Shown piece after piece: positions 39,162 through 41,942 of a stretch of 64,000 nucleotides of DNA. Origin of the DNA: a bacterium (GTDB lineage Bacteria > Pseudomonadota > Gammaproteobacteria > GCA-002705445 > GCA-002716945); assembly GCA_029979505.1 (NCBI GenBank), contig JAPOHH010000005.1, positions 1-64,000 on the forward strand. Direction: 5' to 3'. The translations under genes were made by a program, and so were the position numbers. A model generated the notes under the pieces. It made no database searches, had not been told where the DNA came from, and worked only from the letters and a program-made list of their open reading frames with translations. Position 1 is the first letter of the stretch; each line of letters begins with the position of its first letter.

Positions 39162-39955
39162 ATTTTGCTGTAATAGGTAACCCTATTAACCACAGCTTGT
39201 CTCCAGCAATACACAAATATTTTGCCTCACAATTTAATTTAAATGATTTCGTGTACGATAAAATAGAGACGACCCAAGATAATTTAGGTAAGACCATAGA
39301 AGCCTTTTTTTCATGTGGAGGCAAAGGTTTAAATATAACAATTCCTTTTAAAATACATGCATTTAATATCTGTCATTTACTAGATACGTCAGCTATCCAG
39401 TGTGGGAGTGTAAACACACTTATGAGTGAGTCAAATAAAATTAAAGGTTTCAATACAGATGGTATAGGTTTTCTCGATGATTTAAACCAGAAAGGAATTG
39501 AATATAATAATTCAAATATACTAATTATTGGTGCCGGAGGATCTGCAATGAGTATAATAAGTTCTATCCTTCAAAAATCAAAAAAATCAAATATTTCAGT
39601 TTTCAATAGAACAAAAATTAATGCTGAAAATTTAATAAAACTCTTTAACAATAATAAACTAAATTTGCATGACCATGATACATGTTATGATTTAGTTGTA
39701 AACACCACACCTATAAGCATGTCTGAAGAAAAGATAAATCTACCTAATAAATTGATTAGATCAAAGACGATTTGCTATGATCTATTTTATAACAGCAAAA
39801 GAACGTCATTCCAATCCTGGGCTTACGATAACGGTGCAGAAAGATGTTATGACGGGCTAGGAATGTTAATTCAACAAGCAAAACACTCATTCACAATATG
39901 GAATAACTTGACTCCTGAGATAAACGGTTTAGAGGATAAATTAAGAAAACTCTAA
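39149..39955 (+). CDS. aroE: Shikimate dehydrogenase
   Basis: VIGNPINHSLSPAIHKYF, GLNITIPFK, FNTDGIGFLDDL, IIGAGGSAMS. Confidence 0.95.
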   Translation: MAKLNFAVIGNPINHSLSPAIHKYFASQFNLNDFVYDKIETTQDNLGKTIEAFFSCGGKGLNITIPFKIHAFNICHLLDTSAIQCGSVNTLMSESNKIKGFNTDGIGFLDDLNQKGIEYNNSNILIIGAGGSAMSIISSILQKSKKSNISVFNRTKINAENLIKLFNNNKLNLHDHDTCYDLVVNTTPISMSEEKINLPNKLIRSKTICYDLFYNSKRTSFQSWAYDNGAERCYDGLGMLIQQAKHSFTIWNNLTPEINGLEDKLRKL

Positions 39956-40468
39956 AAAGTCATTCTTTGTATTAACATAATGTTGAGCAGAATATTTTAA
40001 AAACTCAATCTCAGAGATTTTTAATGGTCTAATTTTCTTACATGGAGAGCCCATGTAAAGGTAGCCTGATTCTAGGATTTTCCCTGAGGGTACCAGAGAT
40101 TTTGCACCTATAATTACATTTGACTGAATTATTGAGCCATCAAGTAGCACACTGCCCATTCCAATCAATGCCATATCTTTAATCGTACACGCATGAATTA
40201 CGCATGCATGTCCTATAGTTACATCAGATCCAATAGTGCATGGGTAGCCTGAAGAGTAATCGCTTTTATGTGTGACATGGACAATACTGCCATCTTGCAA
40301 ATTTGTTCTACTTCCTATAGTAATCGGATTTATATCTCCTCTTACTACTGATTGAGGCCATATGCTCACATCATCTCCGAGTGAAACATCCCCAATAACT
40401 GTTGCTTGTTCATCAACAAATACATGATTTCCAAGTGACGGGGTAAATTCTTTAAATTTTCTTATCAT
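39941..40468 (-). CDS. Gamma carbonic anhydrase family protein (hexapeptide repeat)
   Basis: VFVDEQATVIGDVSLGDDVSIWPQSVVRGD, IGHACVIHACTI. Confidence 0.92.
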   Translation of the reverse strand: MIRKFKEFTPSLGNHVFVDEQATVIGDVSLGDDVSIWPQSVVRGDINPITIGSRTNLQDGSIVHVTHKSDYSSGYPCTIGSDVTIGHACVIHACTIKDMALIGMGSVLLDGSIIQSNVIIGAKSLVPSGKILESGYLYMGSPCKKIRPLKISEIEFLKYSAQHYVNTKNDFLEFS

Positions 40469-40534
40469 AATGTATGTTTAAATAATTATGTAAAAACTAT
40501 ATCATAGTCAAAAAATTAAAAGTAGGAGTAGATA

Positions 40535-41083
40535 ATGAGCGAAAAAATGATAATGCGTGTAGGTGAGGCTCTTGTAGCAGGGGGGCCGGCTGGAACAGCT
40601 GCGGAGCCTGAAGTAATCATTGGAGAACTAGATGGGCCCTTTGGTACTGCTTTTGCAAATCTTTTAGGTGACCAAGCAAAAGGGCATTCAAAAGTACTAG
40701 CAATTATGAACACAGATATCATGGTTAAACCAGCAACGTTAATGGTAAGTAAAGTGTCAGTGGATAATACTAGATATACAAATATATTAATGGGGACTGT
40801 TCAAGGTGCTATTGCGAATGGTGTTTTGGATTCAGTTAGAGACGGAATTATTGATAAAAATAAAGCTAATGAGCTTGGTATTATAGTCTCTGTTTGGCTT
40901 AATCCAAGCGTGTCTAAAGATGATAACTTAGACCATAAAATACTTTTTGATATTCATAGAAAGGCAACATATCAAGCAATTAAGAAAGCTATGAATAATG
41001 AACCATCAATTGATTGGTTATTAGAAAATCAAGATGATTTGATTCATAAGTATTATCAAATGGGCCTTGATGGAAAAATATAA
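40535..41083 (+). CDS. Formaldehyde-activating enzyme (Fae) family protein
   Basis: VGEALVAGG...IIGELDGPFGTAFANLL...GHSKVLAIM...KPATLMVSKV...GTVQGAIANGVLDSVRDGII resembles Fae throughout; GGAG Shine-Dalgarno upstream. Confidence 0.85.
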   Translation: MSEKMIMRVGEALVAGGPAGTAAEPEVIIGELDGPFGTAFANLLGDQAKGHSKVLAIMNTDIMVKPATLMVSKVSVDNTRYTNILMGTVQGAIANGVLDSVRDGIIDKNKANELGIIVSVWLNPSVSKDDNLDHKILFDIHRKATYQAIKKAMNNEPSIDWLLENQDDLIHKYYQMGLDGKI

Positions 41084-41942
41084 AGTGATGGAACAAATTA
41101 ATAACTATTTGTTGTTAATGAGACTTAACAAACCAATAGGAATTTATTTATTATTATGGCCGATGCTGTGGGCATTTTTTATTGCATCGAATGGCCAACC
41201 TAATCTATTTATCATGTTTCTGTTCATAGTAGGTGTTATTCTGACTAGATCAGCAGGTTGCGTTATTAATGACTTTTTTGATAAAGAAATTGATTCTAAA
41301 GTGGAAAGAACAAAAGAAAGGGTACTTGCAAACGGCAAAGTAAGTACTAGCGAAGCTCTGATTTTATTTTTTTTTCTTATTTCCTTATGCATTTTATTGC
41401 TCCTAATGATTGGGTTTGATATTTTAATTTATGCAATAATATCATTTTGCTTATTAGTGATTTATCCATTATCAAAAAGAGTTATCAAAATTCCACAACT
41501 AATCTTAGGAATAGCTTTTGGTTCAAGTATCCCAATGGTATACATTGCTGAAATAGGTGAGGTAACTGCGTCGTGCATGCTATTATATCTTGCTACAATA
41601 TCATGGGCTATAGCATATGACACCTACTATGCTATTGCAGACAAAACAGATGATTTAAAAATAGGAAACAAATCATCTGCCATCCTATTTGGCTCAAAAG
41701 ATATAAGCTATCCTTTCAACCTTCATGTAATAACTATAACCTTGTTATTTACAGTTGGAATAATAAATAACCTTGAATTATTTTTTTATATATCTCTACT
41801 AATTGCTCTTATGTTATCTGTTTATCAGAAGATACTCGCTGCAAAAAGAATACCTTATCAATGCATATCTGCATTTGAAAATAATAATTATTTTGGATTA
41901 ATAATCTTTTTTGGACTACTATTAAGCTACATTTATGAATAA
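41067..41942 (+). CDS. ubiA: 4-hydroxybenzoate polyprenyltransferase
   Basis: [74 protein letters not shown]. Confidence 0.95.

Follow-up and report, generated by a model that had tools for sequence, protein, structure and literature searches.

A non-canonical Fae-like paralog with glutamate at the histidine position of Fae, encoded alongside a canonical Fae in a 0.9-Mb gammaproteobacterial genome

Canonical Fae, the formaldehyde-activating enzyme (5,6,7,8-tetrahydromethanopterin hydro-lyase), condenses formaldehyde with tetrahydromethanopterin (H4MPT). The role of the related Fae2 and Fae3 proteins of methylotrophs is a question of many years' standing. The Fae-like groups 2–4 are of unknown function, and sensing, regulation or tetrahydrofolate (H4F)-linked transfer have been suggested for them (PMC11748545; PMC3728764). 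Fae3 of Methylotuvimicrobium alcaliphilum 20ZR does not complement the fae deletion of Methylorubrum extorquens, and loss of fae3 causes no growth defect in its own host (PMC11748545). Similarly, deletion of fae2 or fae3 has no growth phenotype in Methyloversatilis universalis FAM5; fae3 of this species is upregulated about 10-fold on methylamine, and the knockout grows normally on that substrate (PMC5023235). In Methylobacterium aquaticum 22A, deletion of fae2 leads to slower growth on methanol (PMC7356819). Methylotrophs are already known to have one formaldehyde sensor that is not an enzyme, EfgA (PMC8153426). We rejected EfgA as the same protein, as it belongs to another family (DUF336), and use it only as a comparison of the mode of action. 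The Fae2 and Fae3 paralogs have thus long been described with their function unexplained, and the gene analyzed here is a further member: like Fae3 of 20ZR and FAM5, it is a Fae-like paralog that exists beside a canonical Fae.

The gene lies in the window, the whole 64-kb stretch of DNA that was analyzed (Table 1), and has a ribosome-binding site rated as good (AGTAGGAGTAGATAATG). Its product matches the Pfam family PF08714 over the full length (residues 9–173; 197.9 bits against a cut-off of 27, 1.4e-58) and Fae of M. extorquens AM1 (1y5y) at 1.4e-18, while identity to canonical Fae is generally about 28–37%. The AlphaFold2 model (pLDDT 87.2) has the Fae fold, with TM scores of 0.82/0.88 to chain 1y60_D of the methylene-H4MPT-bound Fae (E 2.9e-16, 29% identity). 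The profile match and the model bear out the Fae-like identity assigned in the preliminary description of this DNA. As a separate observation, the "Avd" chains of nine PDB entries (8ub7_B and related ones) contain a stretch (residues 127–286) matching M. extorquens Fae, presumably due to a fusion or a mislabelled chain.

Table 1. Coordinates of the Fae-like gene, its elements and its neighbours in the window.
Feature	Positions	Strand	Basis
Divergent hexapeptide-repeat (gamma-carbonic-anhydrase-like) gene, upstream neighbour	39941..40468	-	PF00132
Leader of the Fae-like gene with putative ribosome-binding site	40517..40534	+	GGAG a few bases 5' of ATG
Gene for the 182-aa Fae-like paralog (group A; probably equivalent to the published "Fae3")	40535..41083	+	PF08714, TIGR03126, Fae fold
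Glu24 codon, at the position of M. extorquens Fae His22	40604..40606	+	Alignment to 1y5y and family-wide alignment
ubiA (PF01040), co-directional 3' neighbour	41067..41942	+	Profile match

Scanning a set with one genome for each species, we obtained 80 relatives with 61–98% identity in gamma-, alpha- and betaproteobacteria and in Planctomycetes. Together with further loci from whole-genome searches, they form a family set that we sorted into group A, which includes the window gene, group B, and group C, the canonical Fae. In the tree, each group lies on one side of a branch (support 96/96 for A, 95/86 for B, and 100/100 for C); A pairs with B and is distant from canonical Fae, with long branches and a rooting that is not fixed. 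The window protein falls outside the canonical clade, with the split supported at 100/100.

We take His22 (Met1 numbering) of M. extorquens Fae to be the catalytic residue and proposed acid, following the work on 1y5y and 1y60. A HMMER alignment to 1y5y, the second of its two lines being VGEALVAGGPAGTAAEPEVIIG, places Glu24 of the window protein opposite His22, as a by-eye alignment in the preliminary description had done; no histidine occupies the active position. In the family-wide alignment, this column is Glu in 93 of the 93 readable group A orthologs (one further ortholog is truncated at position 24), Met in 10/10 proteins of group B, and His in 38/38 canonical Fae. Moreover, E24-P25-E26 is fixed in every readable group A ortholog from three proteobacterial classes and Planctomycetes. 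Glu24 is therefore a clade signature and not a local mutation. The loop near Glu24 is indeed two residues longer than in 1y5y, also as claimed, but this carries little weight because canonical Fae vary in length there too, including the one encoded in the same genome (VTEGGDNEISHIDL).

The substitution is one of many. Among the columns at least 95% fixed in both group A and canonical Fae, 24 differ, that is, His22 and 23 more, and 17 agree, such as E11, K71, G85, Q88, and H164. From canonical Fae to group A, the segment QAVQMFGPAQ becomes YTNILMGTVQ, and GVFIHW becomes SVWLNP. Thus, the window protein lacks His22 and 23 further residues that are fixed in canonical Fae. The NCBIfam equivalog TIGR03126 still accepts it (131.8 bits, above the cut-off of 118.05), so an automatic pipeline would label it as Fae, and paralogs probably inflate the number of annotated "fae" genes in methylotrophs. 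As the amino acid at position 22 alone (His, Met, or Glu) separates the three groups, a rule based on this position could stop such annotation from counting paralogs as working Fae. The same position is the one to swap in a laboratory methylotroph.

The sister clade, group B, can be linked to a described protein: plasmid pMaq22A_1p, on which fae2 of M. aquaticum 22A is located, has a single Fae-like gene, and this falls there. The clade of this Fae2 shares T21, P25, E26, G34-P35, G37, H51, W121, and P124 with the window protein and differs in having Met at the His position, in all ten group B proteins; the identity of Fae2 to the window protein is 35.6%. With Fae2 in group B, A is left as the other type and is probably the published "Fae3". 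By naming and distribution, Fae3 of M. alcaliphilum 20ZR and M. universalis FAM5 probably belong to the group of the window gene.

The host assembly consists of 15 contigs with a total length of 917 kb and is 90% complete. It contains a second gene, fae1, at the end of contig C13, which is canonical, with a His-bearing motif (EISHIDLLMGPRG) and a TIGR03126 score of 234.4 bits. Contig C15 opens with the start of a fae having ∼120 bases in common with the C13 gene, with two differences as read by eye; the two are probably the same gene, although the contigs are not joined. It is followed on C15 by citG-like and ATP-grasp genes, mch, another ATP-grasp gene, mtdB (PF09176), and a beta-RFAP-synthase-like gene, and then, on the opposite strand, by fhcB, fhcA, fhcD, and fhcC. 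NCBIfam scores of FhcB, FhcC, and beta-RFAP synthase are below the cut-offs, but the gene order and neighbours leave little doubt about their identities. C13 also bears a dihydropteroate-synthase-like gene and a methylofuran-type gene. Hence the H4MPT pathway of the host looks complete, with its own Fae.

This changes the meaning of two earlier statements, that the window gene is stand-alone and that no gene of the H4MPT pathway is found near it. Both describe the neighbourhood correctly, as we found no H4MPT genes in the 64-kb window. However, the gene is not stand-alone at the level of the genome, and the absence, a consequence of the window size, is misleading as a clue: the single mch and ftr of the genome sit on another contig. 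Of the genes proposed for a genome-wide check, mtdB, mch, fhc, and a second fae were found, along with beta-RFAP synthase. The window gene, lying outside the H4MPT cluster unlike canonical fae, is not the sole fae copy accompanying a complete pathway, and its product is very unlikely to be the working Fae of the host.

In the same 90% complete genome, there is no PQQ methanol dehydrogenase above the cut-off and no gmaS, and among 274 gammaproteobacterial genomes 6-phospho-3-hexuloisomerase (HxlB) above the cut-off is present in four, the host not being one of them. The only GCV_T-domain protein of the host is a 305-aa frame of YgfZ size. Thus, a bacterium with a genome of ∼0.9 Mb has full H4MPT-dependent formaldehyde oxidation with no PQQ methanol dehydrogenase above the cut-off, no GmaS, and no evident source of formaldehyde.

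To see how the paralog is distributed, we turned to the same 274 genomes, sampled evenly across families and thus not fully independent as lineages. Fae-family matches are present in 39 of them and mch in 38. Group A occurs in 18 genomes, and in 17 of these it is accompanied by canonical fae1 and mch; the exception, G008, is 75% complete. The association of group A with mch is strong (Fisher p about 1e-15, with relatedness not taken into account). It is one-sided, as 21 genomes have Fae-family genes and lack group A. On the other hand, we observed no association of group A with PQQ methanol dehydrogenase (10/18 vs. 15/21, p = 0.34) or with GmaS (7/18 vs. 6/21, p = 0.52). The window gene is therefore a non-canonical Fae-like paralog that co-occurs with canonical Fae, as Fae2/Fae3-type proteins do.

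The knockouts of fae3 with no growth phenotype in two methylotrophs could be taken to mean that the paralog is a redundant or decaying copy of Fae with no selected function. The substitution pattern already contradicts this. The window gene differs from its relative L004 by 71 synonymous and 4 non-synonymous changes (dN/dS about 0.008), indicating strong purifying selection; in addition, the clade-specific residues are fixed. Each of the four sampled genomes of ∼0.9–1.1 Mb with fae1 (G000, G255, G142, and G039) has also retained group A, and none of them has a PQQ methanol dehydrogenase above the cut-off. We consider redundancy highly improbable: retention in such genomes argues for a real function, and for one not tied to methanol.

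As to what this function may be, the preliminary description proposed a possible paralog with a role other than that of canonical Fae, such as aldehyde binding or sensing. That it is a paralog stands, given the His-bearing fae1 and mch, mtdB, beta-RFAP synthase, and fhcBADC in the host. Very probably, the protein does not condense formaldehyde with H4MPT efficiently, because the proposed acid and many canonical positions have changed and a probable member of the group fails in complementation. With moderate confidence, we favour an accessory role for this non-canonical paralog (group A, Fae2/Fae3-type) at the formaldehyde/C1-pterin node, beside Fae1 and not replacing it. The protein keeps the Fae fold, and its altered pocket might, less certainly than the loss of condensation, bind formaldehyde or a C1-pterin and so could buffer, gate, or report the C1 load to the oxidation pathway; a sensing role is possible. 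The co-occurrence and the sparse gene linkage are what suggest an accessory role. The absence of a growth defect in the fae3 deletions of M. alcaliphilum and M. universalis counts against it, and so does the fact that Glu24 could in principle act as a general acid.

If it does, the protein may be a second working Fae, with Glu24 in place of His22 as the general acid, providing extra or condition-specific capture of formaldehyde on H4MPT. Glutamate is ionisable, unlike the methionine of group B, the fold is intact in the model, TIGR03126 accepts the protein, and group A nearly always accompanies the H4MPT pathway. All this would fit, but the 23 other canonical positions have changed as well, and Fae3 of M. 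alcaliphilum, probably of group A, does not complement the M. extorquens fae mutant; hence we regard a second working Fae as unlikely.

The gene neighbourhood adds some hints in favour of the accessory role. The tight run from the Fae-like gene to ubiA-bioB-bioF-coaBC-dut is real, and the ubiA ATG is likely at 41089, five bases past the fae stop. It is common to only about 17–19 close loci, with other neighbours elsewhere, and we found no neighbour of group A genes conserved across orders. As this neighbourhood is confined to close relatives, we reject a functional link to ubiA, bioB, or bioF. Elsewhere, the group A gene is mostly alone, and where it is not, its neighbours suggest a connection with C1 metabolism. 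It adjoins fhcC-fhcD in five loci of Methylococcales (L040, L044, L051, L053, and L057), and in two Methylobacterium loci, L071 and L153, the mgsABC-gmaS genes of the N-methylglutamate methylamine pathway lie directly 5' of it. L071 is the second group A copy of M. brachythecii, and L153 is located on plasmid pLVM1 of Methylobacterium sp. DM1 (CP029174.1). The latter linkage fits the methylamine induction of fae3 in M. universalis, though it is a minority pattern.

The two Methylobacterium loci and this induction are also what one would expect if group A proteins let folate-borne C1 enter H4MPT oxidation, either by transferring C1 units between H4F and H4MPT or by setting formaldehyde free from methylene-H4F, as was put forward for Fae3 (PMC5023235). 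Yet the fae3 knockout of M. universalis is normal on methylamine (PMC5023235), group A and GmaS are not associated among the 274 genomes, and the host itself has no gmaS. This makes transfer between the two pterins a doubtful explanation. More speculative still is a broader scenario, in which group A would be a Fae adapted to a new task: its Glu-Pro pocket would handle tetrahydrofolate or report the C1 load, and in streamlined marine bacteria having no PQQ methanol dehydrogenase the protein would route folate-borne C1 into H4MPT oxidation.

In 14 Methylococcales loci, an uncharacterised radical SAM gene with weak similarity to viperin/MoaA is divergent from the paralog. We rejected it as a partner, as it is present in only 4 of the 18 group A genomes among the 274 and also in genomes lacking mch. 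Finally, pLVM1 is typed as a conjugative plasmid, and the position of its group A fae directly after mgsABC-gmaS suggests that a methylamine module containing a group A paralog is mobile.
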